Shown piece by piece: positions 818-62,220 of a DNA stretch of 64,000 nt. Origin of the DNA: Hymenobacter taeanensis (lineage in GTDB: Bacteria; Bacteroidota; Bacteroidia; Cytophagales; Hymenobacteraceae). Each line of letters starts with the position of its first letter. Position 1 is the first letter of the stretch. The notes under the pieces were generated by a model. The model saw only the letters and a program-made list of their open reading frames with translations. It had not been told where the DNA came from and did no database searches. The position numbers and the translations under genes are program-made. The stretch is taken from NCBI RefSeq assembly GCF_013137895.1, contig NZ_CP053538.1, positions 1,735,501 through 1,799,500 of the forward strand. The letters are read 5' to 3'.

Positions 818-2266
818 ATGCAAAACTCGTTGCGCTGGCTCACAGCCTCCCTACTGAGCCTTACTTTTTTGTCTTGCGCCAAGCAAGACCTCACTCCCAG
901 CTCGCCGGCCGCGGCCATCACCACCCAGCAGGATGTAAGCAGCGCCGGTTTCCCCGAGAGCTTCGATACGGGCACTAAAACGGCCTATACCACCGGCTCG
1001 GTTACGCTAGGCTCCGGCTCCTGGACCCTAAACGACGCCCTGCTGGGCAACACTACCGCCGACCATAAAACCGGGGCGCAGTCGGTGCGGGTGCGCAACG
1101 TGGGCACAGTAGGCATGAACTTCAACGCCACCACGGGCGCGGGCGTGGTAACGGTGCAGCACGCCGTATATGGCACCGATGGCAGCTCGCAATGGGAGCT
1201 GTGGGTAAGCCAGAATAGCGGCAGCAGCTACACCAAAGTGGGCAGCACCATCACCAGCAGCAGCACGGCCCTGAACACGGCCTCTTTCACGGTAAACCTG
1301 AGCGGCAACATTCGCCTGCAGATCCGCAAAACCTCGGGCGGCACCAACCGCATCAACTTCGATAACGTGACCCTGGAGCAGTACGGCTCGGGCACTACCA
1401 CCCCGCCCCCCACCACAGGCGGCAAGAAGTTCCTGTTTGATGGCTCGCACGCCGAGCTGGCCGGCAACGCCGACTGGGTACTGGATGTAGACAACGGCGT
1501 AGCCGTGCGCTACCCTTCGCCGGCCCAGAGCGGCATTACCAGCAGCACGCCGGAAACCTACTGGACGGGTGCTATCTCAGCTTGGGGCGTGGCCCTGGTG
1601 AAGCTAGGCCACTCCGTGGAGCAGTTGCCCGCAGGGGCCGCCATTACGTACGGCAACAGCTCCAACGTACAGGACCTGAGCAACTACAGCGTGTTTGTGG
1701 TGGATGAGCCTAACACCGTATTCTCGGCCGCTGAGAAAACCGCCATCCTGCAGTTTGTGCAGAACGGGGGCGGTTTGTTCATGATTTCTGACCACGACAT
1801 TTCAGACCGCAACAACGACGGCTGGGATTCTCCTGCCATCTGGAACGATCTGATGCAGAACAACTCCGTGAAGGCTAACCCCTTCGGCTTCTCGGTAAAC
1901 CTCGATAACGTGGTGGAAAACAGCACCAACGCACTGACTACTTCCACGAACCCCATCATGAACGGCTCGCAGGGCAAAGTAACCCAGCTCTCGTACCACA
2001 ACGGCGCCACCATGACGCTCAACCCCACCGCCAACTCTACGGTACAGGGCCTGATCTGGCGCACCTCCGCTACGCAGGGCAACAACAGCGTAATGGCGGC
2101 CAGCAGCACCTTTGGCACCGGCCGGGTGGTAATCATCGGCGACTCCTCACCGGCTGACGATGGCACCGGCTCGCCTGGCAACACCGTGTACGATGGCTGG
2201 AACGAGAACGTAAGTCACGCCCGTCTGCACCTGAACGCCTCGCTCTGGCTGGCTAAGCTGCAGTAA
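818..2266 (+). CDS. secreted lipoprotein: beta-sandwich domain plus glutamine-amidotransferase-like (ThuA/IFT52-type) domain
   Basis: The ATG at 818 is preferred over the upstream in-frame codon at 767 because it directly starts a lipoprotein signal (MQNSLRWLTASLLSLTFLSC, Cys at about residue 20). A Ser/Thr-rich linker leads into a beta-sandwich of about 130 residues, of the kind found N-terminal in Bacteroidota secreted nucleases and hydrolases (ends FDNVTLEQYG). After a Pro/Thr linker (TTTPPPTTGG), the rest (about 270 residues) resembles class-I-glutamine-amidotransferase-like folds: KFLFDGSHAE start, a VFVVDEPN strand, FVQNGGGLFMISDHD, and a C-terminal GRVVIIGDSSPADDG. A catalytic Cys typical of true amidotransferases is not evident, so the activity is unknown. 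Probably outer-membrane anchored. Possible alternative: carbohydrate- or nucleic-acid-binding surface protein. Confidence 0.7.
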   Translation: MQNSLRWLTASLLSLTFLSCAKQDLTPSSPAAAITTQQDVSSAGFPESFDTGTKTAYTTGSVTLGSGSWTLNDALLGNTTADHKTGAQSVRVRNVGTVGMNFNATTGAGVVTVQHAVYGTDGSSQWELWVSQNSGSSYTKVGSTITSSSTALNTASFTVNLSGNIRLQIRKTSGGTNRINFDNVTLEQYGSGTTTPPPTTGGKKFLFDGSHAELAGNADWVLDVDNGVAVRYPSPAQSGITSSTPETYWTGAISAWGVALVKLGHSVEQLPAGAAITYGNSSNVQDLSNYSVFVVDEPNTVFSAAEKTAILQFVQNGGGLFMISDHDISDRNNDGWDSPAIWNDLMQNNSVKANPFGFSVNLDNVVENSTNALTTSTNPIMNGSQGKVTQLSYHNGATMTLNPTANSTVQGLIWRTSATQGNNSVMAASSTFGTGRVVIIGDSSPADDGTGSPGNTVYDGWNENVSHARLHLNASLWLAKLQ

Positions 2267-2300
2267 GCCCTCCGGCCTCTTCGTAGGCCACTCCCTTCTC

Positions 2301-2342
2301 AAAGCCCCGTTGTCTGGATTTACCAGGCGGCGGGGCTTTTTT
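2301..2342 (+). terminator. rho-independent terminator
   Basis: AAAGCCCCG and CGGGGCTTT form a stem with a GC-rich base, followed by T residues, about 35 bp after the lipoprotein stop codon. Confidence 0.8.
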
Positions 2343-2432
2343 AATGAGCAAGGAGGAATGAGTAATGCTTTCAAGTTATGGAGTGCCGGATGGGTTGATC
2401 ACTCTTCATTGCTCACTGCCCATTGCCAAGTG
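2343..2432. repeat. imperfect inverted repeat (ATGAGCA...TTCATTGCTCA type)
   Basis: Short sequences of the AATGAGCAAGG / CTTCATTGCTCACTG type face each other. A similar arrangement (ATGAGCAGTGACCAATGA ... TCATTCTTCATTGTCCATTG) recurs at about 17281-17333, suggesting a dispersed intergenic repeat family. Only two diverged copies are in this window. Confidence 0.4.
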
Positions 2433-2501
2433 GCGTGCAATCAGCTAATACAGCACCAATTCCGCGCATTTTGGCATTAACTTAACCGATTGCGGAGGCT
2501 G

Positions 2502-2509
2502 TATCTTGC
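2502..2509 (+). promoter_or_regulatory. possible Bacteroidota -7 box (TATCTTGC)
   Basis: TATCTTGC matches TAnnTTTG at most positions and lies 30 bp before the GH13 start codon. A TTTG at 2470-2473 could be a -33 element, but the spacing (28 bp) is longer than usual. Confidence 0.35.
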
Positions 2510-2538
2510 AGTTCCGTCACTGAATTCCCACATTCCGT

Positions 2539-5247: not shown

Positions 5248-5350
5248 GATGATGAAGTGGTGACGTGGTGAGTTTGATGGCGTACTGGCCTAGACCGCGC
5301 AAATAGCGCCGCATAAACGTCAAACTCACCACTTCACTACCTCATCATTT
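5248..5350. repeat. intergenic inverted repeat (GATGAAGTGGTGA type)
   Basis: The left arm (from GATGATGAAGTGGTGACG) and right arm (CTCACCACTTCACTACCTC and ATCATTT) are imperfect reverse complements of about 32 bp around a centre holding ACTGGCCTAG at 5285. Similar TGGTGAAG/CTTCACCA arms occur at 61348-61438, and related CTCAC/CATTACC-rich sequence lies at 7207-7345, so this is probably a dispersed hairpin family. Confidence 0.6.
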
Positions 5351-7206: not shown

Positions 7207-7345
7207 TAATGAGGTGATGGGGGTGACGTAGCGCGCAAGTGTCTCGTCCCAAACAGTGCAAACCTTAGGTGGCCTAGGCCACCTCATTACCCTCATAACT
7301 CCATTACCTTATCACCTCCTTACCTCTTCACTTCCTCACCTCTTT
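7207..7345. repeat. low-complexity intergenic segment with CTCATTACC/CTCAC repeats and a TGGCCTAGGCCA palindrome
   Basis: Stretches such as AATGAGGTGATGGGGGTGAC and then CTCATTACC, CTCCATTACC, TTATCACCTCC, CTCACCTCTTTACC alternate up to the start of the transporter gene. The palindrome TGGCCTAGGCCA is at 7270-7281. The segment resembles the arms of the 5248-5350 repeat but lacks a clean hairpin. Confidence 0.4.
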
Positions 7346-7360: not shown

Positions 7361-8776
7361 ATGGCAACCAGCGTAGCGGCCGCTCCCACCAGCACCCGCG
7401 AAAAACCTCGCCTCAGCTTCTGGCAAATCTGGAACATGAGCTTCGGCTTCTTGGGCATCCAGTTCGGCTTTGCCCTCCAGAACGCCAACGTCAGCCGCAT
7501 CTTTGAAACCATGGGCGGCACCGAAATAGCCTTTTACTGGCTGGCGGCTCCGCTGACTGGCCTACTGGTGCAGCCCATCATCGGCTACATGTCGGATCGG
7601 ACGTGGAGCCCGCGTTGGGGTAGGCGGCGGCCGTTTTTTCTGGTAGGTGCCGTTTTAGCCTCGTTTGCTCTGCTGGTAATGCCCAACGTCACGGCGCTCT
7701 GGATGGCCGTGGGCATGCTCTGGATAATGGACTCCAGCATCAACATCAGCATGGAGCCGTTCCGGGCGCTGGTAGGTGACTTGCTGCCCTCCTCGCAACG
7801 TACCACCGGCTTTGCGGCGCAAACCTTCTTTATCGGGGTAGGAGCCGTGGTAGCATCGTCGCTGCCCTGGATGTTTACCAACTGGTTTAACGTATCGAAT
7901 ACGGCACCCGCCGGGCAAATTCCCCTGTCGGTGAAGTATGCCTTTTACATTGGTGGGGTGGTGTTCTTCCTGGCAGTACTCTGGACGGTGCTCCGCACCA
8001 AGGAGTATCCGCCGGAAAACATGGAGGAATTTGAGGCTGAGAAGCGCCAGAACGCTGGCTTTTTAAATGGCGTGCGGGAATCGTTTGCGGGTATCTTTCA
8101 CATGCCCAAAACCATGCGCCAGCTGGCTGTGGTGCAGTTTTTTTCTTGGCTGGCATTATTCTCCATGTGGATTTACACCACGCCCGCCGTAACCAGCCAC
8201 ATTTATCACACCACCGATACCACTTCCAAGCTCTACAATGAAGGGGCCGACTGGGTAGGCATTTGCTTTGCGGTGTATAATGGTATTTCGGCCATTGCCG
8301 CTCTGCTCCTACCAGTTATTGCCCGGGCTACCAGTCGCCGCATCACACACCTTCTGTGTTTGGTAGCAGGTGGCCTAGGCCTCATTTCCATCTATTTCAT
8401 TCAGGACCCCACTATGCTGTTGCTCTCCATGGTGGGCGTAGGTATTGCCTGGGCTTCTATTCTGAGCGTGCCATATGCGATGCTGGCCGGAGCTCTGCCC
8501 GCCAACAAAATGGGGTATTACATGGGCGTGTTCAACTTCTTTATTGTGATTCCGCAGGTAGTAGCCGGCCTGATTCTGGGCTTCTTCACGAAGAATGTCT
8601 TCGGGGGTGAATCCGTCTATACCCTTGTTCTCGGGGGCGCCTCCATGATTCTTTCGGGCCTGCTCACGCTGCTGGTCCACGATGAGGACGACATCCGGTT
8701 GCCAGCGGCAGCAGAAACCATCCATACCAGTTCACCCGGCTACGATGCGCCGGTTGAGTCTGATCCAAGGATGTAG
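7361..8776 (+). CDS. MFS sugar transporter, SLC45/GPH-like (maltose/sucrose type)
   Basis: 471 residues from the ATG at 7361; an upstream in-frame start at 7256 would add 35 residues encoded by the low-complexity leader and is unlikely. About twelve hydrophobic segments are visible. Marker stretches are MSFGFLGIQFGFALQNANV at the first helix and the MFS loop RTWSPRWGRRRPF between helices 2 and 3, both characteristic of the SLC45-type glycoside/proton symporters of Bacteroidota. A charged loop of about 30 residues lies between helices 6 and 7 (YPPENMEEFEAEKRQ). Being last in the GH13-SDR-GH13 run, it probably takes products of periplasmic glucan breakdown into the cytoplasm. Substrate (maltose, maltodextrin, glucose) is inferred from context only. 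Confidence 0.87.
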   Translation: MATSVAAAPTSTREKPRLSFWQIWNMSFGFLGIQFGFALQNANVSRIFETMGGTEIAFYWLAAPLTGLLVQPIIGYMSDRTWSPRWGRRRPFFLVGAVLASFALLVMPNVTALWMAVGMLWIMDSSINISMEPFRALVGDLLPSSQRTTGFAAQTFFIGVGAVVASSLPWMFTNWFNVSNTAPAGQIPLSVKYAFYIGGVVFFLAVLWTVLRTKEYPPENMEEFEAEKRQNAGFLNGVRESFAGIFHMPKTMRQLAVVQFFSWLALFSMWIYTTPAVTSHIYHTTDTTSKLYNEGADWVGICFAVYNGISAIAALLLPVIARATSRRITHLLCLVAGGLGLISIYFIQDPTMLLLSMVGVGIAWASILSVPYAMLAGALPANKMGYYMGVFNFFIVIPQVVAGLILGFFTKNVFGGESVYTLVLGGASMILSGLLTLLVHDEDDIRLPAAAETIHTSSPGYDAPVESDPRM

Positions 8777-8834: not shown

Positions 8835-8990
8835 TGCGCTAGGCCTGTCCGTATTTATACTAGGCCAGAGAAGTTAAAATCAGCATTTACCCCTTCCTAC
8901 TAACTACCGCGCTGGCCGTATTCCCTAGATACTTAGTGCCGCATCTTTGCCCTCAGCTAAAGCGCGGTCTTTCAGCTAGACAGGCAGCGT

Positions 8991-10088
8991 ATGATAGTCG
9001 TAACCGTATTCTTTGGCATATTCTTCGGGCTCTTTCTGCTGATTTTACTGTTGCTGGTGTTACCTCGCCCCGCCCTGCATGACTCGGGCGCCCGGCCCCG
9101 GGTCAGCATCCTGATAGCGGCCCGCAACGAAGAAGCCACCATTGAGCGCTGCCTGCAGGCGCTGCTGCAGCTAAACTACCCCGCTGAGAAACTGGAAATC
9201 CTCATCGGCGACGATGCCTCTACTGATAATACCATGGCCGTGGTAGAGGCATTCATTAAGAATAAGCCTCAGTTTCGACTGCTGCCCGTCCGACACCGCC
9301 TGGGTACCTCCCGCGGGAAGAGCAACGTACTGGCCCACCTCTGCCGCGCCGCCACTGCTGATTACCTGCTGTTCACCGATGCCGACATGGCTCTGGCCCC
9401 CAACTGGGTGCAAACCATGCTGGCCGCGGCCCCAGAGGGGGTAGGTATTGTTACGGGCATTACCACCGCCAGCGGGAGCCTTTTCGGCCGCCTGCAGGGG
9501 CTTGACTGGCTGTTTGGCCTGAACCTGATACGGCTGCTCACCGACCTGGGCCTGCCCATTACGGCGGTAGGTAACAACATGCTTGTGACGCGGGCAGCGT
9601 ATGAGTCTATTGGCGGGTATGAGGCCTTGGCGTTTAGCATCACCGAAGACCTGCAGCTGTTTGAGCAGGTAGTAAACCAGGGGTGGGGCTTCCGCAATAT
9701 TATTACCCCCGACGCCTTAGGCGTATCAGTACCGCAGCCTACGGTGCGGCACCTGCTTCACCAGCGCAAGCGCTGGATGAAAGGGGCCAGCCGGTTGCCC
9801 TGGCAACTCACGCTGCTGTTCAGCTCTTACGGCTTTTTCTACACCGTATTGGGGTGGCCGGGCTTGCTGCCTTACCCTGTTATTGCCGCGCTTTATGCGG
9901 CCAAGGTGCTCTGCCAAACGTTGTTTTTGCTCATCACGCTCCGGCAGGTGGGCCGGCGGGAGTCTTGGCAGGTACTGTTATTCTATGAAGGCTACCTGCT
10001 GGTAGTGTCGGTGGCGGCCCTCGTCTACACGGTGTGGCCCTCTTATATTCAGTGGAAGGAGCGGCGCTACCGCTGGGCAGAGGGCTAG
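8991..10088 (+). CDS. membrane glycosyltransferase family 2
   Basis: 365 residues. One N-terminal membrane helix (residues 1-24), then a GT-A domain beginning RVSILIAARNEE, with GDDAS (first Asp pair), a DADM metal-binding DxD-type motif, EDLQL, and QRKRWMKG (QxxRW acceptor motif). Two or three helices follow near the C-terminus (residues 275-355). This layout is that of processive or polyprenyl-linked GT2 enzymes such as cellulose/hyaluronan-synthase-like proteins. It adds sugars from nucleotide donors on the cytoplasmic face of the membrane; the product is not predictable. Its TAG stop codon lies inside a copy of the iterated motif (CTAGGCCA at 10085). It is convergent with the small gene that follows. 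Confidence 0.88.
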   Translation: MIVVTVFFGIFFGLFLLILLLLVLPRPALHDSGARPRVSILIAARNEEATIERCLQALLQLNYPAEKLEILIGDDASTDNTMAVVEAFIKNKPQFRLLPVRHRLGTSRGKSNVLAHLCRAATADYLLFTDADMALAPNWVQTMLAAAPEGVGIVTGITTASGSLFGRLQGLDWLFGLNLIRLLTDLGLPITAVGNNMLVTRAAYESIGGYEALAFSITEDLQLFEQVVNQGWGFRNIITPDALGVSVPQPTVRHLLHQRKRWMKGASRLPWQLTLLFSSYGFFYTVLGWPGLLPYPVIAALYAAKVLCQTLFLLITLRQVGRRESWQVLLFYEGYLLVVSVAALVYTVWPSYIQWKERRYRWAEG

Positions 10089-10107
10089 GCCACTCTAAAT
10101 GCCGGGG

Positions 10108-10655: not shown

Positions 10656-10674
10656 AAGAGGTTTCTGTACTGGC

Positions 10675-12396
10675 CTAGGCTTTGGGTTTCTGGCCCATGC
10701 TTTTCCCCCGAATGGCCCGGAACTCAGAGCCCGGCTTCCAGTTGGGGAAGGTAGTTTCATTGGCTAGTCGTTGCCCTACCCGGAACAGCAGGCGCGCATC
10801 CTGTTCCATGCCGCGCAGGTCCCAATTAGGGTTGTACTCATCGGAGGGCTGGTGGTAGTGCTTCTCCTCAAACTCATTGTGCTGCTGCGTGATGTACTCC
10901 TTGCCCTTAGCCCGGCTATCAGCCGCCCCGCTGGCGTAGAGGGAGGGCACGCCTACTTTGGCAAAGTTGAAGTGGTCGGAGCGGTAATAGAATCCCTTCT
11001 CCGATTGGGCGTCGGGCTGAATGTAGCGGTCCTGCTCCTTGGCGGCTTCGCGGGCATAATCATCAAGGTCAGACTGGCCGAGGCCCACTACCGTTAAGTC
11101 ACGCATGGGCCCAAAAGAGGAGAGGGCGTCCATGTTGATGTCGGCCACCGTTTTGTTGAGTGGAAACAAGGGGTGGGCGGCGTAGTAGCCGGAGCCCAGC
11201 AGGCCCTGCTCTTCGCCCGTCACGGCCAGAAACACGATGCTGCGGGCGGGCGGCTGGGGTAGTTGGGTGAAGGCTTTGGCAATGCTGAGCAGGGCCGCGC
11301 AGCCGCTGGCATTATCTACCGCGCCGTTATAGATAGAGTCGCCGTTGATGGCGGGCCCGATGCCGAGGTGGTCCCAGTGCGCCGAGTAGATGATGTACTC
11401 ATTGGCGCGGGCCGCACCCGGCAGCACGGCCACCACATTTTTGGAGTTGCGGCGGCGCAGCTTGTTCTCCACGCTCACGCTCAGGGTCAGGCCCATGGGC
11501 TGGGCCTTGAAGCCTTTCTTGTTGGCGGCGGCGTAAAGCTGGTCGTAGTTGAGGTTGGCGGCCTGGAACAGCTTTTTGGTGGCATCCAGCGTTATCCAGC
11601 CCTCAATGGCACACTTGCTGGCCCCCTTATCAGTAGTTTGGGGGCGCAGCTTGGCACCGGAGTAGCTGCTCTGCACCACCGACCACGGGTAAGCGGCCGG
11701 CTTGGTGTCGTGCACGATGAGCAGGCCGGCAGCACCCTGGCGGGCAGCTTCCTCATACTTGTACATCCAGCGGCCATAGTAGGTCATGGCCTTGCCCTTG
11801 AACATGGTGGTGTCGTTGCCCGCGTTGCCGGGGTCGTTTACCAGCACCACCACGGTTTTGCCCTTCACGTCGAGGCCAGCGTAGTCGTTCCAGCCGTACT
11901 CGGGGGCTACCACGCCGTAGCCGGCAAACACCAGCTCAGAGTTCTTCAGGGCTACCGAGGGTACTTCCCGCTCGGTGAAGGCCATGAAGTCGGTTTTGTA
12001 GTTGAAGGTCAGGGGTTGGCCTTTGCCGGTTACCTGCATGGTGCTGGAGGGCGTGCCGGTAATTTCTACTAGAGGTACGTTTTGGAAGTAAGAGCCATCG
12101 GGACCGGGTTTGAGGCCTAGCTTCTTGAACTCATCTGCCAAGTAGGTAGTGGCCTTTTCCTCGCCAGCCGTGAAGGGCTTGCGGCCCTGAAACTCATCAG
12201 AAGCCAGCACCTTGATATGGTTGCCGATATCCGCCGTCGTGATGCCATCGGGCGGAGAGGTGATGGTGGTGTCAGAGGGGGCAGTGGCCGCGTTGGAGCT
12301 GGCGGTAGTGGTTGTGGAGGAGTTGCCCTGGCAGCCGGCCAAGAGGCCGAGCAGCAGAGCCGGACCCGCCAAAGCGGCGGTAGAAAGAACGCGCAT
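10675..12396 (-). CDS. secreted M28 family metallopeptidase with PA domain (lipoprotein)
   Basis: 573 residues from the ATG at 12396 (a TTG two codons upstream is less likely). The N-terminus is a lipoprotein signal ending LLAGC. A protease-associated insert (about residues 140-300) precedes the zinc aminopeptidase core. Metal-ligand motifs are visible: SAHWDHLG (about residue 340), DNASG, the VTGEEQGLLGS pair of Glu, NMDAL, and the final His in RSDHFNFAK. This is the pattern of M28 aminopeptidases/carboxypeptidase-Q-like enzymes that remove residues from peptides in the periplasm or outside. Its stop codon falls inside the motif TGGCCTAG (10671-10678). It is divergent from the M16 peptidase at 12869. 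Confidence 0.92.
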   Translation of the reverse strand: MRVLSTAALAGPALLLGLLAGCQGNSSTTTTASSNAATAPSDTTITSPPDGITTADIGNHIKVLASDEFQGRKPFTAGEEKATTYLADEFKKLGLKPGPDGSYFQNVPLVEITGTPSSTMQVTGKGQPLTFNYKTDFMAFTEREVPSVALKNSELVFAGYGVVAPEYGWNDYAGLDVKGKTVVVLVNDPGNAGNDTTMFKGKAMTYYGRWMYKYEEAARQGAAGLLIVHDTKPAAYPWSVVQSSYSGAKLRPQTTDKGASKCAIEGWITLDATKKLFQAANLNYDQLYAAANKKGFKAQPMGLTLSVSVENKLRRRNSKNVVAVLPGAARANEYIIYSAHWDHLGIGPAINGDSIYNGAVDNASGCAALLSIAKAFTQLPQPPARSIVFLAVTGEEQGLLGSGYYAAHPLFPLNKTVADINMDALSSFGPMRDLTVVGLGQSDLDDYAREAAKEQDRYIQPDAQSEKGFYYRSDHFNFAKVGVPSLYASGAADSRAKGKEYITQQHNEFEEKHYHQPSDEYNPNWDLRGMEQDARLLFRVGQRLANETTFPNWKPGSEFRAIRGKSMGQKPKA

Positions 12397-12868
12397 ACGC
12401 AAGTAGGGGAGATGGTGGAACGAACTGAGTGGCCTAGGCGCCGATTTTCGGCAGCTAGGCTACTCTGGCTCAAGGTGCTGAAAATCCCTTGGATTTATAT
12501 CTTACCCTATGAATACATTCAGGCACTGTAGCGCTGGTGGCTTGTTAGCTTGAATCAGTTTACCTCGGGCCCGCTGTAGTGACACCTACTCAGGTCTCCT
12601 CTATTAAACAACTGGCCTAGAACGACGCTGCTAAACAACAGTAGCGACGAGGATGCCTAAGTGAGTGTCTCCACAGTGGGCGCCGGTATCTTAAGCAACT
12701 CACACCAGACATTCTGCTTGTGCGTGGTATTTCGGCATGCTCCTTAGATCAGTTGGCTTGGCTTGGAATAAGCCTAGGCAATTACTTGCATCTTCCTGTT
12801 TTTTACTGTGTCTTTCACGGCGTAACTTCCGGGCTACTAAGCTTTCTTCATCCTCTATTTCCCCACTA
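12397..12868. other. 472 bp divergent intergenic region between two peptidase genes
   Basis: No convincing gene. It carries two copies of the iterated motif (TGGCCTAGG at 12430, TGGCCTAG at 12613) and a relaxed AGCCTAGGCA at about 12770. Frames that run through it (for example 12217-12531) are antisense to the M28 gene or lack protein-like composition. Promoters for both flanking genes must lie here, but I see no strong TAnnTTTG box. Confidence 0.45.
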
Positions 12869-15919: not shown

Positions 15920-15950
15920 ACTGGCCTAGGCCACTAGTGGAGTGCCTGCA

Positions 15951-25471: not shown

Positions 25472-25540
25472 CAACGAGGGCGGACTGGCCTAGGCCTACT
25501 TGTTCGTTCCGGCTTACAATAAATAAATTAGCACAACTCA

Positions 25541-26434: not shown

Positions 26435-26464
26435 CTTTCGGCTAGGCCAGTACTGTAATTTGGC

Positions 26465-34426: not shown

Positions 34427-34461
34427 GCCACTGAGCGGCTAAGGCTACAGGCCTAGAACGT

Positions 34462-41208: not shown

Positions 41209-41231
41209 TGGCCTAGGCCACTATTGGAGCT

Positions 41232-42326: not shown

Positions 42327-42352
42327 GGTTTGGTCGTTCTAGGCCACTCTTC

Positions 42353-43365: not shown

Positions 43366-43656
43366 TGTCATTTCGAGAGCCGCGAGGAATCTGGGGAGTG
43401 ACCTAGAGGTTGCTCATGCTCCTACAGGCCGTCATGCTGAGCTTGTCGAACCGAAGGTCGCCGTAGGCAAGCATCTCTACTGCTTCGTGCTTTCACTAGC
43501 CCAAGGTGTAAACCTTGGGTTATGGAGCGGGTACTGTTCTAGGCCAGTAGTTAGTCAGAGGTAGAGATGCTTCGGCTCCGCTCAGCATGACGTTCTAGAG
43601 AAATTCAAACAATGCCTAGGCCGGTCCCGAGATTCCTCGCGCCTCTCAGAATGACA
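43366..43656. repeat. dispersed inverted repeat, family B, split by a family A copy
   Basis: Outer arms TGTCATTTCGAGAGCCGCGA (then GGAATCT) and AGATTCCTCGCGCCTCTCAG (then AATGACA) are imperfect reverse complements 290 bp apart. Between them sits a complete family A repeat (43431-43596), suggesting that one element inserted into another. Confidence 0.75.
43431..43596. repeat. dispersed inverted repeat, family A, copy 6 (nested, longest)
   Basis: GTCATGCTGAGCTTGTCGAA ... GCATCTCTACTGCTTCGT faces GGTAGAGATGCTTCGGCTCC and GCTCAGCATGACGTTCT. The interior is longer than in other copies and includes TTCTAGGCCAGT (43537-43548). Confidence 0.8.
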
Positions 43657-46067: not shown

Positions 46068-48581
46068 ATGAAAAGAAAAGACGATTCCGCCGCCCCCCGC
46101 GCACCTCGCGCGAAGGCGGCCCGTGGCGAAGAAGCCACCGCTGCCGCATCGGTATCCAAAGACCTCGTGTTTCGGATCTTCCGCGACAACCCCACCAAAG
46201 TACTGGCCTACCGCCAGCTCTCCCGCCGCCTCGGTGTCACTACCAAGCAGCAGCGCGAGGAGATATTCGACCACCTCAAAGCCCTCAAGAAAGCGGGCTT
46301 GATTACCCTCCTCCAGAACGACGAGTACCGCCTCACAGACCCCGGCATCACCGAATTTGCCACCGCTCCGGCTAGCAGCCGGCGGGCCCGCAACCCCGAG
46401 AATACGCCGGTGCCTGCGCGCCGCAGTGGCCGCCCCATCGAAACGGAATTTGGCCAAGACCCCGTGGTGCACCGTCGTCGCGAGGCGGGTTTCGACTTCC
46501 CCGATGCCGACGAGCCAGACACGCGCCGCCGGCCCGGTCGGGAGCACGATGCCCAGACTATCACGGGTACCGTTTCCCTGGCCACCGATCAGTTTGCTTT
46601 CGTCATCAGTGAGGAGAGCGAAACCGATGTGCGCGTGTTCACCGACCGCCTGAAGTTTGCCATGCACGGCGACACCGTGCGCTTGCGCCTGCGTGGCTCC
46701 CGCGACGGCCGCCCCGTGGGCGACGTGGTGGAGGTAATAAATCGGGTGCGCCCCGAGGTAGTGGGCCGCCTGTTTGTGCAGGGCGGCATCGGCTTCGTGA
46801 AGCCCGATAGCCGCAAGCTCTACTTCGATGTATTCGTGCCCTTCGAGAACCTACACGGCGCCAACCACGGCGAGAAAGTGCTGGTGCGCATCACCGAGTT
46901 TCCGGAGGGTGGTGAAGGCCGCTCACCAGTTGGAGAAGTGGTGCGGAGCTTCGGACAGGCCGGCGAAAACGAGGCCGAGATCAACGCCATCATGGCCGAG
47001 TTCGGGCTCCCCTTCGAGTTCCCCACGGACGTAGAAGCCGAGTCCGAATCCATCTCCGACGTCATCCCGCAGAGCGAGATTGAGCGCCGCCGCGACTTCC
47101 GCGACGTGACCACGTTCACCATTGACCCCGCCGATGCCAAGGACTTCGACGATGCCCTGTCCATCCGGAAGCTGGAGAACGACCACTGGGAGATTGGCGT
47201 GCACATTGCCGACGTGACCCACTACGTGCGGCCCGGCACCGAGTTGGAGCGCGAAGCCAAGTACCGGGCTACCTCAGTGTACCTCGTAGACCGGGTGATT
47301 CCCATGCTGCCCGAACGCCTCTCCAACGGTCTCTGCTCCTTGCGCCCCAACGAGGACAAGCTGACTTTCTCAGCGGTGTTTGAGCTCGACGAAAACGGCA
47401 AGCTCTACAACTCCTGGTTCGGTAAAACCATCATTCACTCCGACCGTCGCTTCGCCTATGAAGAGGCCCAGGAGCGCATTGAAGGGTTGGACTCCGACTA
47501 CACCGCCGAGATTCAGCTGATGAACAGCATCGCCAAGAAGCTGTGCGCGGCCCGCTTTAAGCAGGGCGCTATCAGCTTCGAAACGCAGGAGGTGAAGTTC
47601 AAGCTGGATGAAAATGGCAAGCCTCAGGGGGTGTATGTGAAGGAGCGCAAGGACGCCCATAAGATGATTGAGGAGTTCATGCTGCTGGCCAACCGTAAGG
47701 TGGCTGAGTTCGTGTTCAAGCTCAAGAACCGCAAGCCGCGCCTCACCATGGTGTACCGCGTGCACGAAGCCCCGGACCCCGACCGTTTGCAGAACTTCGC
47801 CCTCTTCGCAAAGAAGTTCGGCCACAACCTCGACCTCACCAACCCCAAAAAGCTGAGCACCGAGCTCAACGATTTGTCGGAGACGGTGATGGGCCGCCCG
47901 GAGCAGAACGTCATCCAGACGCTGGCCGTGCGCACCATGTCGAAGGCCATTTACACCACCGAGCCCCTAGGCCACTTCGGTCTGGCGTTCGAGCACTATT
48001 CGCACTTCACCTCACCCATCCGGCGCTACCCCGACATGATGGCGCACCGCCTCCTGGAGCACTATTTGGAGGGTGGCAAGAATGTGGAGGTCGGCCCCGT
48101 GGAAGAAGAGTGCAAGCACTCCTCCGAGCGGGAAAAATTAGCCGCCACCGCCGAGCGTGCCAGCATCAAATACAAGCAGGTAGAGTTCATGTCGGAGGTT
48201 ATCGGCGAGACCTTCACCGGCGTGGTGTCGGGCCTTACGGAGCGTGGGCTGTACGTGGAAATCGAGGAGAACAAGTGCGAAGGCATGGTTCGCCTCAACG
48301 AAATTCCTGGCGACTTCTTCGAGCTGGACCGCGACAACTACCGCATCGTGGGCCGCAACACCAAGCGCATTATCCAGTTCGGTGACGAGATGCAGGTGGT
48401 GGTAAAAGCCGCCAACCTGCTCGACCGCACCATCGACTTTGAACTGGTAGACGAGCGCCCCGACCACGTGAAGCGTCGCGAGCAGGAGGACCGCCGCCAA
48501 GGCAGCAAGCCCCGCGGCTACCGCCCCGAGCGCAGCAGCGGAGGAGGCCGCCCCGGCGGCAAAGGCGGCAAGCGCCGCTAG
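46068..48581 (+). CDS. rnr: ribonuclease R (RNB-type 3'-5' exoribonuclease)
   Basis: 837 residues from the ATG at 46068 (MKRKDDSAAPRAPRAK); the frame from a TTG at 45996 adds 24 residues without support. N-terminal basic stretch and winged-helix-like segment (residues about 25-100), cold-shock-type domains, then the RNB domain with TIDPADAKDFDDALSI (catalytic Asp cluster) and FTSPIRRYPDMMAHRLL. S1 domain near the C-terminus (GETFTGVVSGLTERGLYVEI), and a Gly/Arg/Lys-rich basic tail (GGGRPGGKGGKRR). Degrades structured RNA, including rRNA and mRNA. The stop TAG lies in CTAGGCCA (48578). Confidence 0.96.
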   Translation: MKRKDDSAAPRAPRAKAARGEEATAAASVSKDLVFRIFRDNPTKVLAYRQLSRRLGVTTKQQREEIFDHLKALKKAGLITLLQNDEYRLTDPGITEFATAPASSRRARNPENTPVPARRSGRPIETEFGQDPVVHRRREAGFDFPDADEPDTRRRPGREHDAQTITGTVSLATDQFAFVISEESETDVRVFTDRLKFAMHGDTVRLRLRGSRDGRPVGDVVEVINRVRPEVVGRLFVQGGIGFVKPDSRKLYFDVFVPFENLHGANHGEKVLVRITEFPEGGEGRSPVGEVVRSFGQAGENEAEINAIMAEFGLPFEFPTDVEAESESISDVIPQSEIERRRDFRDVTTFTIDPADAKDFDDALSIRKLENDHWEIGVHIADVTHYVRPGTELEREAKYRATSVYLVDRVIPMLPERLSNGLCSLRPNEDKLTFSAVFELDENGKLYNSWFGKTIIHSDRRFAYEEAQERIEGLDSDYTAEIQLMNSIAKKLCAARFKQGAISFETQEVKFKLDENGKPQGVYVKERKDAHKMIEEFMLLANRKVAEFVFKLKNRKPRLTMVYRVHEAPDPDRLQNFALFAKKFGHNLDLTNPKKLSTELNDLSETVMGRPEQNVIQTLAVRTMSKAIYTTEPLGHFGLAFEHYSHFTSPIRRYPDMMAHRLLEHYLEGGKNVEVGPVEEECKHSSEREKLAATAERASIKYKQVEFMSEVIGETFTGVVSGLTERGLYVEIEENKCEGMVRLNEIPGDFFELDRDNYRIVGRNTKRIIQFGDEMQVVVKAANLLDRTIDFELVDERPDHVKRREQEDRRQGSKPRGYRPERSSGGGRPGGKGGKRR

Positions 48582-48610
48582 GCCAGTACCAGCAAGTGGC
48601 CTAGGACAAC

Positions 48611-48790: not shown

Positions 48791-48857
48791 TTTAAGCGGG
48801 CACGTTGTAGCCTGCCACCTGGCCTAGGCCACCCATCCATCCCAACCGACTCCTCCG

Positions 48858-48888: not shown

Positions 48889-49860
48889 GTGGACCTGTCC
48901 CAACTCACCGACCGCCTCACTACTGGCCTAGGCCAGCTACGCTACGGCGAAGCGCCCGACGCGCTCTACGAGCCCATTCGCTACATCATGGCCCTCGGGG
49001 GCAAGCGCATCCGCCCTCTGCTCACGCTGCTAGGTGCCCATCTGTTTACCGATGACCTAGACCCCGTACTGAAGCCGGCTTTGGCTACCGAGGTCTTTCA
49101 TAACTTCACCCTCCTCCACGACGACCTGATGGACCAGGCGCCCCTGCGCCGGGGCAAGGCCACCGTGCACGAGAAGTGGAACCCCAACGTGGCTATCCTG
49201 AGCGGCGACGTGATGCTGGTGCGGGCCTATGAGCTGTTCCTGGACGTGAAGCCCGAGCTACTGGCCTACGTGCTGCGCCGCTTCTCCCAAACCGCCGCTG
49301 AGGTCTGCGAAGGCCAGCAGTGGGATATGAGCTTCGAGACAGAAACGCAGGTCAGCATTGACCAGTATCTCGACATGATCCGCCTGAAAACGGCCGTGCT
49401 CCTGGGCTTTGCCCTGGAGCTGGGTGCCCTGCTCGGCGGCGCTTCCCGTGAGGATGCCGACCACCTCCGCCAGTTCGGGGTAGGGATTGGCGTGGCCTTC
49501 CAGCTGCGCGACGATCTGCTGGACGTGTACGGCGACGCCGCCACCTTCGGCAAGCGTGTGGGCGGCGACATCGTATCCGACAAAAAGACTTTCCTACTGC
49601 TCACTGCCCAGGCTCAGGCCACGCCGGCCCAGCAAGCCACGCTAGCCCACCACGTAGGCCAGCCCGTGATAGATGCCGATGCTAAGGTGCAGGCGGTGCG
49701 GGCAATCTACGATGAGCTCGGAATACGCCCTCAGACGGAAGCTCTCATCAATACCTACTTCCTAGATGCCTTGCAGCACTTGGAGCGCGTGGCGGCCTCC
49801 GCAGAGCGTAAAAAGCCCCTGCATCAGCTGGCCCTCCAACTCATGGACCGCGAGCAGTAG
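48889..49860 (+). CDS. polyprenyl (trans-isoprenyl) diphosphate synthase
   Basis: 323 residues, GTG start at 48889 (DLSQLTDRL); no ATG is near in frame. First Asp-rich motif DDLMD at 78-82 (LLHDDLMDQAPLRRG) and second DDLLD later (QLRDDLLDVYGD), plus GGKRIRPLL, all typical of head-to-tail prenyl elongases. Makes C15-C40+ diphosphates for quinone side chains, carotenoids or other terpenoids; product length cannot be set from reading alone. Cytoplasmic. The first 50 bp carry a TGGCCTAGGCCA palindrome (48924), and another lies just before the gene (48820). The rhomboid gene follows after 66 bp. Confidence 0.93.
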   Translation: MDLSQLTDRLTTGLGQLRYGEAPDALYEPIRYIMALGGKRIRPLLTLLGAHLFTDDLDPVLKPALATEVFHNFTLLHDDLMDQAPLRRGKATVHEKWNPNVAILSGDVMLVRAYELFLDVKPELLAYVLRRFSQTAAEVCEGQQWDMSFETETQVSIDQYLDMIRLKTAVLLGFALELGALLGGASREDADHLRQFGVGIGVAFQLRDDLLDVYGDAATFGKRVGGDIVSDKKTFLLLTAQAQATPAQQATLAHHVGQPVIDADAKVQAVRAIYDELGIRPQTEALINTYFLDALQHLERVAASAERKKPLHQLALQLMDREQ

Positions 49861-51671: not shown

Positions 51672-51786
51672 CAGGTAGGTAAAGGTGATGTAGCGAGTAA
51701 AAGTACCTCGATTTATAGGCTCTGCACGCCTTTGGGTGCGCTAGGCCAGTCTTTGCACGTATAGTTGGGAAATAAGTCCAACACAC

Positions 51787-54792: not shown

Positions 54793-55905
54793 CTACAGTA
54801 GCGTTACCTTACCCGAATCAACACTAAAACGACGGATGTCATCAGAAAGGGAGGAGAGTATTCGGTCGGTGCGTTCGAGATGGGTATCGGTAAGAAAGAT
54901 TTGCCCAAAGGTTTGATTCGCGACAAGCTGCATAAGCCGGGTTATGCGCTTTTCATCTAAGCGGTCAAAAATATCGTCAAGTAGGAGTAAAGGCTTGTGC
55001 TGCTTACGAGCAGCAAGTACTTCAAACTGGGCTAGCTTAAGCGCAATAGCGAACGACTTCTGTTGCCCCTGGGAGCCGTAGCCTTTCACGGCTAGGCCAT
55101 CCATCAGAAAGGTAACATCGTCGCGGTGGGGGCCAAGAGTGGTGCGCTGTAGGGTAATATCCTTGCGCTCCTGAAGGCGGAGGAGCTTAAGAAAATCGGC
55201 ACCGGGAAGCTCACTCTTATAGGTAAGCGTGACTACCTCGCGGGCATCAGCCAGCTGCTCATAATGGCGCTGAAACACGGGCTCAAACTCCTGAAGAAAC
55301 ACCTGCCGGCGCTGAGCTAACTGCTCACCTAATGGGGCCAACTGTTCGTCCAGTACTAATAGGTAGTCGCGGTCGTAGCCACCCTGCCGGTCGGCGGCCA
55401 GCTTAAGGAGGGAGTTGCGCTGCTTAAGAAGGTGCGAGTACTTAATCAGAACTTCCAGGTACTCGTGGTCGAGCTGGGAGATGAGACTATCAAAGTACTT
55501 GCGCCGTTCCTCACTGCCCTGCCGAATGAGGTCAGTATCGTACGGGGAGATAAGTACTACCGGGAAGCGCCCAATGTGGTCAGATATTCTATCGTAAGCC
55601 TGCTTGTCGTGCAGCACTGATTTCTTCTGACTGGTGCGCAGGCTGCACTGAATAATCTCGCCCTTGTCATCAGCTGAAAGTTTAAAACGGCCTCTCACCA
55701 CAAAGAACTCTTCTCCTTGTTTTATGCTTTGTGCATCAGAAGATGTGAAGGCACTTTTAGTAAGCGATAGGTAATGGATGGCATCCAGCAGGTTAGTCTT
55801 GCCACTACCATTATCGCCTACAAAGCAATTGATGTGAGGGGAGAGTAAAAGGTTTGCCTCGTCGTAGTTCTTGAAGAACAATAAATGCAGGTTTTCTAGA
55901 ATCAT
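54793..55905 (-). CDS. recF: DNA replication and repair protein RecF
   Basis: 370 residues. Walker A GDNGSGKT at 30-37 in CFVGDNGSGKTNLLDAIHYL, the ABC-type signature GSQGQQKSFAIALK, and Walker B LLLDDIFDRLD, then the D-loop region; all typical SMC-like RecF. Binds gaps with RecO and RecR and helps load RecA. Leftward, upstream of dciA and divergent from the PDH gene (66 bp gap). Located 26 kb from the candidate oriC. Confidence 0.96.
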   Translation of the reverse strand: MILENLHLLFFKNYDEANLLLSPHINCFVGDNGSGKTNLLDAIHYLSLTKSAFTSSDAQSIKQGEEFFVVRGRFKLSADDKGEIIQCSLRTSQKKSVLHDKQAYDRISDHIGRFPVVLISPYDTDLIRQGSEERRKYFDSLISQLDHEYLEVLIKYSHLLKQRNSLLKLAADRQGGYDRDYLLVLDEQLAPLGEQLAQRRQVFLQEFEPVFQRHYEQLADAREVVTLTYKSELPGADFLKLLRLQERKDITLQRTTLGPHRDDVTFLMDGLAVKGYGSQGQQKSFAIALKLAQFEVLAARKQHKPLLLLDDIFDRLDEKRITRLMQLVANQTFGQIFLTDTHLERTDRILSSLSDDIRRFSVDSGKVTLL

Positions 55906-57984: not shown

Positions 57985-58016
57985 CAGAAAAGGTGGCCTA
58001 GGCCACCTTTTCTGTT
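57985..58016. terminator. perfect 32 bp palindromic terminator with TGGCCTAGGCCA core
   Basis: ACAGAAAAGGTGGCCT and AGGCCACCTTTTCTGT are exact reverse complements with no spacer; the centre is the palindrome TGGCCTAGGCCA. It follows the TPR gene and can act both ways. Confidence 0.85.
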
Positions 58017-58134
58017 TATAAATAGCCTTCAAAAAAACAAAGCGAAGCTAAAATAGTAGGTAGGCAAACTACTACATACCTCCGGCGCACTGCTATACGC
58101 GCTAGGCCACCTCGTACCAAATACCAAAAACCAC

Positions 58135-59426: not shown

Positions 59427-61316
59427 ATGCTTTTACTCATGGGTAAGCAACACAACTCCGGCGAAACGCCAGGCCGCAGCGGCCGCTCAAGTTATCGTCC
59501 TTCGGGCAGCTCCAGCAGCCCTGAGGGCTTCCGCAAATCTGGTGGCGCGGGTCGCAACCGCGACGACCGCCCCACCGGCGGTAACCCACGCTTTGGCGAC
59601 GCCCCCCGTGGCAACAGCTACGGCGGCCCCAAGAAATTTGGCAACAGTGGCTCTGGCTTTGGCGGGCCCAAGAAGTTTAACTCAACGGGAGGCAATGGGG
59701 GCTTTAACCGCGGCGGCGAAGGCCGGCCCAGCGGTGGCGGCTCTCGCCCATATGGTAACCGTGAGTACGGCAACGACCGCCCCCAACGGTCTTTTGACCG
59801 CGATGCCCCGCGCCGTTTTGATGACCGCCGCGAAGGTCGCTTTGAGCGTGATAATGACCGCCGTGATGAGCGGCCGGCCCGCGCCTATGAGCCCAAGGCT
59901 AACTGGCCTGGCCAGCCTTACCGCCAGGAAGGCAAGCCCACCGTACCCCGTGGCGGAGCTGGGGAGCGTAACCGCAAGTTTAACAAGAAAAGCCCCTTCG
60001 AGCAGGATGCCCCGCAGGCTGACCGCTTCCAGCCGCGTGAAGAGCCAGCGGCTCCTACCCGCGACTATGGCAGTGGCCCTGACCGGGAGATACGTCCTGC
60101 TCGTCCGTTCGATTTCCGTGGCCGCCCCGATGAGCTAGACTCGGAAGAGCGGGCACCCCGCCGCGAAGGCTTTGCTCCGCGGGAAGAGCGCTCGGAGCCG
60201 CGCCGCGAGGGCGGCTTTAGCCAGCGCCCTTACGGTGAGCGGAAAGAAGGTGGCTTTGGTGGTGGCAGCTTCGGAGAGAAGCGCACCGCCCGCCCCAGCA
60301 GCTTCAACGCTGACCGCCGCGATGAACGGCCCGCTAGGCCAGGTAGCTTCGGTGACCGGGACAACCGCGGGGCCGGTGAGAAGCGTTTCAACGACCGTCG
60401 GGAAGAACGCCCAGCCCGGCCTTATGGCGACCGTTCGGAGCGCACGACCAACAAGCGTACCGGCCGCGAGTTAGACTCGAACCAGGCTGGCAAGCGCAAG
60501 TGGGGAGAGGTAGCCGGCCAGGCTCCCGACTATAAGAATCTGAAGTTCTATGAGGAAGACAAAACCCGCGGCAACAAGCGCCGTCGGGAAGAGGACGACT
60601 CGCAGAATGATGAGACGCGCCTGAACCGCTACATCGCCAATGCAGGCATCTGCTCGCGCCGGGAAGCCGACTCGCTGATTGCAGCCGGTGAGATTAAAGT
60701 GAACGGAGAAGTAATAACCGAGATGGGTTACAAAGTGAAGCCCACCGATACGGTGCAGTATGGCAAGACCAACCTCAACCGTGAGAAATTGGTATACGTG
60801 CTGCTCAATAAGCCCAAAGACTTTATCACCACCACGGAGGATCCAGAAGGCCGCCGGACGGTGATGGAGCTGGTGGCAGGTGCTTCCAAAGAGCGTATTT
60901 TCCCCGTAGGCCGCCTTGACCGCAACACCACGGGCCTGATCCTCTTCACCAATGATGGTGAGGTGGCGCAGAAGCTTTCGCACCCATCGCACCGCAACAA
61001 GAAAATTTACCAGGTAGAGCTCGATAAGCCTTTGACCGAAGAGCACCTTGGGCAGATTGCTGCTGGCTTGGAGCTGGAAGATGGGAGAGTAGAGGTAGAT
61101 GACGTAGCTGTAGTAGCCGGCAATCCACACTTCGTGGGCATTGAAATCCACATTGGCCGGAACCGCATTGTGCGCCGCATCTTTGAGCACTTAGGATACG
61201 ATGTAGTTTCTCTGGACCGGGTGCAGTACGCTGGCCTGACCAAGAAAGACCTGCCCCGTGGTAAATGGCGCTTCCTTTCTGAGAAAGAAGTAATTCGTCT
61301 GAAGTATTTTATGTAA
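59427..61316 (+). CDS. RluB/RsuA-type pseudouridine synthase with about 395-residue low-complexity N-terminus
   Basis: 629 residues from the ATG at 59427 (a Met four codons later is also possible; the TTG at 59391 is unlikely). Residues 1 to about 390 are almost wholly Gly/Arg/Ser/Asp/Phe/Tyr-rich disordered sequence with repeated RPARP, DRRDE and RRFDDRR-like units. Then an S4 RNA-binding domain (TRLNRYIANAGICSRREADS, about 396-440), and the catalytic domain with FPVGRLDRNTTGL (Asp498) and HPSHRNKKIYQVELD. Makes pseudouridine in the large rRNA (family RluB/RsuA/TruA-like group). The long charged FG/RG-rich arm, typical of Hymenobacter-type genomes, may help RNA binding or condensation; that part is inference. 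Confidence 0.9.
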   Translation: MLLLMGKQHNSGETPGRSGRSSYRPSGSSSSPEGFRKSGGAGRNRDDRPTGGNPRFGDAPRGNSYGGPKKFGNSGSGFGGPKKFNSTGGNGGFNRGGEGRPSGGGSRPYGNREYGNDRPQRSFDRDAPRRFDDRREGRFERDNDRRDERPARAYEPKANWPGQPYRQEGKPTVPRGGAGERNRKFNKKSPFEQDAPQADRFQPREEPAAPTRDYGSGPDREIRPARPFDFRGRPDELDSEERAPRREGFAPREERSEPRREGGFSQRPYGERKEGGFGGGSFGEKRTARPSSFNADRRDERPARPGSFGDRDNRGAGEKRFNDRREERPARPYGDRSERTTNKRTGRELDSNQAGKRKWGEVAGQAPDYKNLKFYEEDKTRGNKRRREEDDSQNDETRLNRYIANAGICSRREADSLIAAGEIKVNGEVITEMGYKVKPTDTVQYGKTNLNREKLVYVLLNKPKDFITTTEDPEGRRTVMELVAGASKERIFPVGRLDRNTTGLILFTNDGEVAQKLSHPSHRNKKIYQVELDKPLTEEHLGQIAAGLELEDGRVEVDDVAVVAGNPHFVGIEIHIGRNRIVRRIFEHLGYDVVSLDRVQYAGLTKKDLPRGKWRFLSEKEVIRLKYFM

Positions 61317-61324
61317 GCACGCAA

Positions 61325-61343
61325 CCACCCGCTCAGCGGGTGG
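61325..61343 (+). terminator. hairpin after the pseudouridine synthase gene
   Basis: CCACCCGCT and AGCGGGTGG pair around one base, 9 bp after the stop codon; no T-run, so a weak or factor-dependent terminator. Confidence 0.6.
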
Positions 61344-61347
61344 CTCT

Positions 61348-61438
61348 AAATGGTGAAGTTGTGAAGTATGGTAGGAGAGAAGTTGTAGTTCAGCCTGAAC
61401 GCCACCTTTCTCCTGCCGTGCATCATAGCTTCACCATT
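61348..61438. repeat. intergenic inverted repeat (AATGGTGAAG type)
   Basis: AATGGTGAAGTTGTGAAG with GGTAGGAGAGAA faces TTTCTCCTGCC and AGCTTCACCATT. The arms resemble the repeat at 5248-5350. Confidence 0.6.
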
Positions 61439-61476
61439 TTTGTGAATTAGCCTAATCCAACCCACACCACTCCTCC

Positions 61477-62220
61477 TTGCGTACCTTTTCCCTAGATATT
61501 GGCAACACGGCTGTGAAGTATGGATGCTTCCAGGAGGATGTGCTGGTGGAAACGGCCACGCATCAAACGCCAGATCAGGTGCGGGCAGCACTTAAGCGTT
61601 TGCAGCCCGAACACGCCATTGTGGCCTCGGTGGCAGAACCTACTGCTGCTTGGGCAGCTGAGTTGCAAGCATTGCTACCTGGCCTAGCACTGGAGTTTCT
61701 CCCGGCTACCACCCCGCTTCCCATCCAGAATGGGTATGCCACGCCGCAGACGCTGGGCGCCGACCGGCTGGCGGCGGCCGTAGGCGCGGCGTGGCTGTTA
61801 CCAGGCCGCAACGTGCTCATTGTGGATGCTGGCACCGCCATTAAGTGCGACTTAGTGGAAGCGGCGGGTATTTTCCGGGGTGGAAGCATCTCGCCGGGTT
61901 TGGCCATGCGGTTTCAGGCCTTGCACACGTTTACCGGCCGCCTGCCGTTAGTAGAGCGGCCCGCTGACCCTACATTACCTATTACCCTCACCGGCGACGA
62001 CACTTTGTCGGCGATACGAAGCGGCGTGCTGAACGGCGCGGCGGCAGAAGTCAGGGGAATGGTGGAGGAATATCGAGCTCACTACCCGGGCCTGGCGGTG
62101 GTCTTGGCCGGGGGCGATGCGGCTTTTTTCCATGCCCGGCTGAAAGGCTCTATCTTTGTCATACCGGAGCTCGTGCTAATGGGGCTTCACCGAATTTTAG
62201 TACACCATGTCTCAACCTAA
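61477..62220 (+). CDS. coaX: type III pantothenate kinase
   Basis: 247 residues, starting with TTG at 61477; no in-frame ATG precedes the essential first motif, LDIGNTAVKYG, at residue 6, and CoaX proteins normally begin 4-6 residues before this Asp. Other motifs: TLGADRLAAAVGAAWL and VDAGTAIKCDLV (ASKHA ATPase fold). Phosphorylates pantothenate in CoA synthesis; this form does not respond to CoA feedback. Its last 14 bases overlap the start of the outer-membrane protein gene at 62207, so both are translated from one mRNA. Confidence 0.92.
   Translation: MRTFSLDIGNTAVKYGCFQEDVLVETATHQTPDQVRAALKRLQPEHAIVASVAEPTAAWAAELQALLPGLALEFLPATTPLPIQNGYATPQTLGADRLAAAVGAAWLLPGRNVLIVDAGTAIKCDLVEAAGIFRGGSISPGLAMRFQALHTFTGRLPLVERPADPTLPITLTGDDTLSAIRSGVLNGAAAEVRGMVEEYRAHYPGLAVVLAGGDAAFFHARLKGSIFVIPELVLMGLHRILVHHVST

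Follow-up and report, generated by a model that had tools for sequence, protein, structure and literature searches.

Sequence tags that mark DNA for uptake, and that differ as dialects among relatives, have been described in two groups of Proteobacteria, both with type IV pili. These DNA uptake sequences (DUS) and uptake signal sequences (USS) show no replication-strand polarity; DUS are tied to a type IV pilus with a minor-pilin receptor, ComP, and the USS of the Pasteurellaceae is a dense, asymmetric word spread across the core genome and linked to uptake by type IV pili. Chi sites favor the leading strand and differ between lineages. Here we examine the word TGGCCTAG, which is highly iterated in a 64,000-base stretch of a Hymenobacter taeanensis chromosome (hereafter the window; C1:1735501-1799500 of a single-contig genome of 4,879,662 bases, labeled G000), and compare it with these systems.

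For the Neisseriaceae, the available portion of Frye et al. (2013, PMC3630211) describes eight DUS dialects with a CTG core, one genome with two dialects, relatives without any, and inverted pairs at terminators. Conserved uptake-sequence copies lie at permissive places of the core genome, according to the accessible part of Treangen et al. (PMC2397512). The model for cyanobacterial highly iterated palindromes (HIPs) couples a DNA methyltransferase to repair, the HIPs being palindromic with matching methyltransferases, in the corresponding part of Elhai (2015, PMC4390886). Measured against DUS as described in that portion of PMC3630211, the Hymenobacter word is likewise short and asymmetric, with about one copy per kb or more on both strands. 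Close relatives differ in dialect in both cases (with a CTG core there, whereas the words here have TAG or TAA at or near one end), and both have two-dialect genomes, word-free relatives, some inverted pairs, and intergenic or otherwise permissive sites. Unlike the Neisseriaceae, G000 has no type IV pilus ATPase match and belongs to a different phylum, and inverted pairs are much less marked. Because the pilus feature fails and the inverted pairs are weak, we do not file the word as a DUS, only as something that works like one. It resembles the Pasteurellaceae USS as a dense asymmetric word and differs from it in that several quite different words occur within one family. With HIP1, as covered in that part of PMC4390886, it shares high iteration and sporadic replacement by other words between relatives, although the words here are mostly asymmetric and three methyltransferase families have no match in G000. 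Like Chi it is short and over-represented; unlike Chi it has no strand polarity.

Exact matches to TGGCCTAG on both strands of the window number 53, against a mean of 3.13 and a maximum of 8 in 100 dinucleotide shuffles, and under a third-order Markov model no 8-mer in the window is more over-represented (53 versus 2.4, z 32). The original prediction, which proposed a highly iterated motif here and listed 47 copies, was right at every position; six of these places (7270, 15922, 41209, 48820, 48924 and 57994) hold the palindrome TGGCCTAGGCCA, which is counted on each strand and so explains the total of 53. The phenomenon is larger genome-wide than had been claimed: the whole of G000 has 1291 + 1296 = 2,587 copies, against 38 + 22 = 60 for a reversed-word control, so the genome count is far from expectation. 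Other details needed amendment. The window, assumed to be about 60% GC, measures 56.5% G+C, and the palindrome is not the unit but a minority form, which over 464 kb of G000 supplies 24 of the 253 motif instances, at 12 places. The stretches described as sparse are unremarkable. Over 144 kb including the window, with two near variants counted besides the motif, the longest gap between copies is 5,682 bases, where random placement gives a mean of 5,705. In 24 further stretches, which exclude the window and overlap so that 20 kb enters two times, copies are missing from 2 of 96 bins of 5 kb, with a variance/mean of 0.82.

The shape of the word was taken from the same 464 kb, made up of the window and 20 further stretches, with 252 copies. 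The consensus around these is A(58%)-S(92%)-TGGCCTAG, as the prediction of an A followed by C or G in front had it, with faint preferences further out. The whole word, A-S-W-GGCCTA-S, is asymmetric. Three one-step variants are enriched in this sample, AGGCCTAG at 7.8 times expectation, TGGCCTAC at 4.1 times and TAGCCTAG at 2.8 times, and the remaining 21 lie at 0.6 to 1.7 times. The extended word ASTGGCCTAS occurs 2,302 times in G000 (control 15) and 3,506 times in the close sibling G018 (control 16); here and below, G-labels denote genomes and L-labels loci. Exact copies of TGGCCTAG lie at 0.53 per kb in G000 and 0.75 per kb in G018, a density like that of uptake words, and when two near variants are included there is one per 1.0 kb and one per 0.65 kb, respectively.

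Comparison with related genomes, which the original prediction had suggested, shows that the sites are retained beyond their surroundings. We aligned 144 kb around the window with 140 kb of G018 (84% identity). Of the 70 G000 sites that could be aligned, 51 have the same sequence in G018, while for flanking 8-mers the figure is 204 of 814 (25%; Fisher P 2e-15). In the other direction, 119 G018 sites could be aligned and 54 are unchanged in G000, compared with 351 of 1,358 (P 1e-5). The enriched variants are also well kept (AGGCCTAG 17/23, TGGCCTAC 26/41), and control variants less so, in small numbers (TGGCCTGG 4/33, TGGCCCAG 4/16, TGGCCAGG 3/14, AGGCCAAG 2/9, TGGCCGAG 5/10, TGGCGTAG 4/8). In three outgroups the word stands at 0/20, 0/22 and 0/24 of the alignable G000 sites. 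A replicate in Pontibacter with a different word, AGGTATAG, gave 16/29 against 80/343 and 21/33 against 124/389. The changes from G018 to G000 are uneven, CTAGG to CCAGG being found 41 times against 4 in reverse and CTTGG to CCTGG 67 against 34, and where a G018 site is altered in G000 it most often reads TGGCCTGG (13 of 65). These alignments suggest a one-way loss of the word from G000, in the manner of very-short-patch repair, despite having no C5 methyltransferase match.

TGGCCTAG is one of several such words among the relatives. Among 37 genomes surveyed in the genus, G000 being one of them (the group g1 was taken as Hymenobacter by inference), thousands of copies occur in two only, G000 (2,587) and G018 (4,554). 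Counts are mildly raised in G033 (540), G021 (409), G014 (202), G023 (163) and G028 (158), and the rest have 20-111. In stretches of G033 and G021 the word is near its Markov expectation (17 versus 11.7; 11 versus 13.3), and their slightly elevated counts are therefore probably due to another word; indeed CCTAGG is dense in these two genomes (372 versus 120 in 120 kb and 460 versus 128 in 180 kb, both strands counted). CCTAGG is also repeated in Solirubrum (L024) and in two of the three g26 genomes sampled (G073, G086). A search of 80 loci near the RNB gene, whose product in the window has its best matches in Hymenobacter records, found at most two copies of TGGCCTAG in any, and other dialects turned up there. 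The word CTACCCCC reaches 4,668 copies in G014 (inferred to be H. ginkgonis) and 4,351, 1,624, 1,213 and 1,152 in four others, making five of 43 Hymenobacter genomes, every other having at most 313; this draw took in G000 and left out G018, G021 and G033. Loci L004 and L032 may tentatively be placed in the CTACCCCC dialect on the strength of GGGGTAG with weak flanks. In group g24, which we take to be Pontibacter since it has words in common with named Pontibacter loci, AGGTATAG has 2,823-5,222 copies in 11 of 43 genomes and 173-833 in the others. In 22 g24 stretches taken outside the AGGTATAG-rich genomes, the leading word is AAGTATAA in 12 and AACTATAG in two; a further two have both (G089, G111), one is weak (G140) and five show no word.

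When properly oriented, all six words seen carry TAG or TAA at one end or close to it, which may be a shared core of the dialects, though the point is a descriptive one. Two further candidates, CGTTTAGC in Rufibacter and GGGGGGCAAA in H. qilianensis, were set aside as possibly belonging to longer repeats. In the neighboring Spirosoma and Fibrisoma (L062, L074, L080), ACGTAG, mostly followed by C or T, occurs 28-36 times against 8-11 (about 3-4x), so that a weakly raised ACGTAGY is possibly a weak word of that family. Separately, CCCCTCTC or AGAGGGGG occurs in 6-12 copies each in Hymenobacter loci L009, L011, L012 and L013, perhaps as a dispersed element. Among the matches listed in searches of the open PubMed Central literature (subscription papers and preprints excluded), none described these words or reported uptake sequences for the Hymenobacteraceae, and the five motif strings searched, with AAGTATAA and AACTATAG outside that set, came up only in papers that are unrelated by title.

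In Pontibacter, the same site can be seen under different words. The AAGTATAA sites of L029 read AGGTATAG in three AGGTATAG-type relatives at 3/15, 3/16 and 2/15 (three distinct sites), a double change 18-24x commoner than for other 8-mers. We also compared the AACTATAG sites of G136 and G075 with 14 AAGTATAA-bearing genomes, two of which carry both words. The other positions were kept in 61 of 319 comparisons, and at the third base 30 of those 61 had G (18 distinct sites), another 30 had C and one had A. At control Cs the share of G is 4.7%, and the most frequent change is to T, at 11%; the transversion at retained sites is thus about ten times as frequent as in controls. In reverse, 6 of 21 AAGTATAA comparisons have C, at four distinct sites, where controls give 5.5%, and five word-free genomes gave 2 G, 2 C and 1 T from 61 comparisons, which are very small numbers. 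As the comparisons share sites and relatives, the P values for the switch are too small. The direction is nonetheless clear: the site persists while the word changes. Plain mutation would not be expected to do this, and it suggests that something reads the word and has changed its specificity.

Placement of the copies is permissive. Assigned with a simple predictor of open reading frames (ORFs), 275 G000 copies in 524 kb comprise 139 coding, 110 intergenic and 26 that cross a gene end, which gives 1.33 per kb in non-coding and 0.33 per kb in coding DNA (2.45 and 0.57 in G018). All dialects examined are 1.7 to 5x denser outside genes, and reversed words are nearly absent. Of the coding copies, 117 of 139 lie in two main phases, reading Gly-Leu or Leu-Gly, and several of these pairs occur in word-free outgroups, so at those the word arose by synonymous change. 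Some coding copies altered the protein, as where LGQ in G000 and G018 stands for LAP in outgroups. Palindromes lie outside predicted genes or across a gene edge in 11 of 13 and 9 of 12 cases, together 20 of 25. An exact-match search of both strands of the window gave the following sites, where "motif" is TGGCCTAG and "palindrome" is TGGCCTAGGCCA.

1604..1611, minus strand, motif
5286..5293, plus strand, motif
7270..7281, palindrome, formed of two overlapping motifs
8371..8378, plus strand, motif
8860..8867, minus strand, motif
10085..10092, minus strand, motif
10671..10678, plus strand, motif
12430..12437, plus strand, motif
12613..12620, plus strand, motif
15922..15933, palindrome, just 3' of the stop of an M16 peptidase ORF (ORF end 15919)
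17151..17158, minus strand, motif
17169..17176, minus strand, motif
22100..22107, plus strand, motif
23030..23037, plus strand, motif
23765..23772, plus strand, motif at a Gly-Leu pair found in outgroups too
24735..24742, minus strand, motif
24981..24988, minus strand, motif, LGQ in G000 and G018, LAP in three outgroups
25182..25189, minus strand, motif
25486..25493, plus strand, motif
25918..25925, plus strand, motif
26442..26449, minus strand, motif
29897..29904, plus strand, motif
32092..32099, minus strand, motif
34423..34430, minus strand, motif spanning the stop of a class II tRNA synthetase ORF (ORF end 34426)
36126..36133, plus strand, motif
37684..37691, minus strand, motif within the intergenic repeat 37624-37741
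38553..38560, plus strand, motif
41209..41220, palindrome adjoining the stop of ORF 37762-41208 on its 3' side
42129..42136, plus strand, motif with its TAG serving as stop codon for ORF 41435-42136
42268..42275, minus strand, motif within the intergenic repeat 42218-42330
42339..42346, minus strand, motif
42592..42599, minus strand, motif
43539..43546, minus strand, motif
44659..44666, plus strand, motif
44907..44914, minus strand, motif
45616..45623, plus strand, motif
47967..47974, minus strand, motif at Leu-Gly-His common to G000, G018 and three outgroups
48578..48585, minus strand, motif spanning the stop of an RNB-domain ORF (ORF end 48581), left arm of an inverted pair
48597..48604, plus strand, motif, right arm of the inverted pair with 48578..48585
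48820..48831, palindrome
48924..48935, palindrome
51741..51748, minus strand, motif
55092..55099, minus strand, motif
57994..58005, palindrome, about 30 bases 3' of the stop of ORF 57191-57964
58102..58109, minus strand, motif
60334..60341, minus strand, motif
61680..61687, plus strand, motif

Pairs of copies 8-30 nucleotides apart are inverted or direct in 10 and 6 cases in G000 (about 8 of each expected) and in 16 and 2 cases in G018 (about 10.5 of each expected), or 26 to 8 in the two genomes, with one hairpin followed by TTTTT. Strand bias was checked relative to a probable origin, as the original prediction had suggested. A cluster like DnaA boxes, with eleven TTATCCACA sites at no more than one mismatch in about 800 bases, lies at window positions 28999-29808; the stretch is A+T-rich (46% G+C), contains no long ORF and is probably the replication origin, and the two arms show a weak difference in GC skew. 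A similar region in G014 (L139 9863-12013), where a search for GTGGATAA found 17 TTATCCAC sites, is probably the origin of that genome. With the G000 origin set at window position 29.4 kb, the 275 sampled copies divide into 139 leading and 136 lagging, hence Chi-like polarity is absent among them, and none of 60 origin placements gave a significant bias (best 55%, P 0.48).

The candidate machinery was sought by profile matches. All 21 genomes tested for ComEC have it, word-enriched or not. A full-length PilB/PilT-type ATPase, of a pilus or secretion system (PF00437, E about 1e-120), occurs in 3 of 120 genomes (G009, G065 and G165, at loci L184, L183 and L185), the other 117 having either weak matches that cover well under a third of the profile or none. 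Given that no pilus ATPase match is found in G000, the Neisseria or Haemophilus route is unlikely for this organism. Riemerella, also of the Bacteroidota, transforms by means of ComEC, DprA, ComF, RecA and four unknown proteins, according to the available part of PMC8459023, and R. columbina prefers its own DNA, the frequent words listed in the accessible part of that report being A+T-rich (PMC7965970). The search for a matching methyltransferase, another suggestion of the original prediction, came up empty: PF00145 (C5 methyltransferase), PF01555 and PF02384 have no match in G000, the D12/Dam, Eco57I-type and Vsr families lying outside the search. PF00145 is also without a match in G021, G033, G014, Solirubrum and 4 of 6 AGGTATAG-rich genomes tested, PF01555 in G018 and G021, and PF02384 in G014. 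G018 has one PF00145 match, plus PF02384, and PF01555 and PF02384 occur together in 6 of 6 AGGTATAG-rich genomes tested and in most of the non-rich g24 genomes tested alongside. As markers of enrichment, the pilus ATPase, ComEC, the Riemerella transformation domain DUF5689 and the three methyltransferase families were all rejected, since none splits enriched from non-enriched genomes.

With its genome-wide density, asymmetry, conservation, permissive placement and lack of strand polarity, and with several dialects and a switch at orthologous sites, the word is very probably read and maintained, and the proposal of a selected or driven iterated motif recognized by a protein is supported. We suggest that TGGCCTAG would be the core of a lineage-specific recognition word, one dialect in a Hymenobacteraceae family of words, bound chromosome-wide by a sequence-reading protein that most likely belongs to the natural-transformation pathway. 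Fragments bearing the word would be preferentially taken up or recombined, so that better copies spread by molecular drive and are kept, settling at intergenic and synonymous positions; a change in reader specificity would lead to existing sites being rewritten to the new dialect. That DNA uptake is the mechanism, with the protein reader, uptake process and drive that this entails, we regard as an even proposition. The fuller reading, a pilus-independent self-recognition for transformation in the Hymenobacteraceae whose putative receptor was respecified several times, each time rewriting thousands of tags, is offered tentatively and falls somewhat short of even.

Several points weigh against an uptake system. 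No full-length PF00437 was found in G000 or in any genome rich in AGGTATAG or CTACCCCC (a 120-genome draw, with G018, G021 and G033 outside it and pilins not searched), nor, with the same limit on pilins, was a receptor. DUF5689 has no match in G000 and occurs in only 5 of 11 AGGTATAG-rich genomes, and ComEC does not separate word-bearing from word-free genomes. The Hymenobacter dialects diverge more than those of the Neisseriaceae. Inverted pairs are barely above chance in G000 and G018, and Pontibacter reverses the preference (2 inverted versus 12 direct), so they are no general feature. In the dialect switch, the third base changed in only half of the retained sites, and the comparisons are not independent, sites and relatives being shared. 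Nor are the copies spaced significantly more evenly than chance would have it (P 0.13 and 0.21). Of the three parallels drawn originally, the uptake-like one is nonetheless best supported, by the dialects, conservation and permissive sites and against the lack of a pilus ATPase and receptor, and the Chi-like and, for G000, the HIP1-like ones are disfavored.

Among other explanations, the one that survives best would make the word the binding site of a chromosome-organizing or widespread regulatory protein whose specificity drifts by lineage. This would explain the conservation, both orientations, the intergenic preference and switching without competence, but thousands of near-randomly spaced copies, about half of them in genes, are odd for a housekeeping role, as are near relatives without any obvious word, and we rate it unlikely. 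A Chi-like role, in which a RecBCD/AddAB-type enzyme would stop degradation and start recombination at the word, predicts genome-wide dispersal and would suit the lineage differences of Chi; the even division between leading and lagging strands, with no significant bias at any of the 60 origin placements, makes it a distinctly unlikely account, unless in a non-polar variant. In a HIP1-like account, a DNA methyltransferase acting together with repair would both create and maintain the word. The palindrome CCTAGG is perfect, TGGCCTAG contains GGCC, HIP words too have sporadic alternates in the available part of PMC4390886, and the C5 methyltransferase match of G018 and the PF01555 and PF02384 matches of all six AGGTATAG-rich genomes point the same way. 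Most words, however, are asymmetric (TGGCCTAG, CTACCCCC, AGGTATAG, AAGTATAA and AACTATAG), CCTAGG alone being palindromic, and G000 lacks matches to the three families searched (with Dam/D12 and Eco57I-type enzymes outside that search, and recent loss of an enzyme conceivable), which leaves this account improbable.

Mutation or repair bias alone is a far weaker candidate. Very-short-patch repair shapes CTAG, and the directional change of CTAGG to CCAGG between G018 and G000 is of this kind, but its effect is to remove the word, not to create it. In the outgroups the corresponding sequences depart from the word at one to five or more positions, some with gaps, and non-synonymous cases exist; because of these a single-step bias is no explanation, and we think it highly improbable. 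Origin of the copies from a single repeat family, transposed or copied around, is refuted, even though those at 37684 and 42268 sit in intergenic repeats of about 110-120 bp, as the 252 copies share about three flanking bases and little more, and 139 of 275 lie in predicted genes in preferred reading phases.

If an uptake system is correct, it would be a third case of tags with dialects, pilus-independent and in the Bacteroidota, and DNA self-recognition would have evolved again. Dialects would then sort genomes by reader specificity, offering a route to the DNA receptor of Bacteroidota competence, and the origin of tags would become testable, one orthologous site being visible before and after a word change.

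Two minor observations concern other repeats of the window. An intergenic repeat of about 110-120 bases lies at 25281-25388, 37624-37741, 42218-42330 and 48612-48731, and G018 has it too. Window 12-mers such as AAGCATCTCTAC and AGCATGACGTTC occur in 5-9 copies each.

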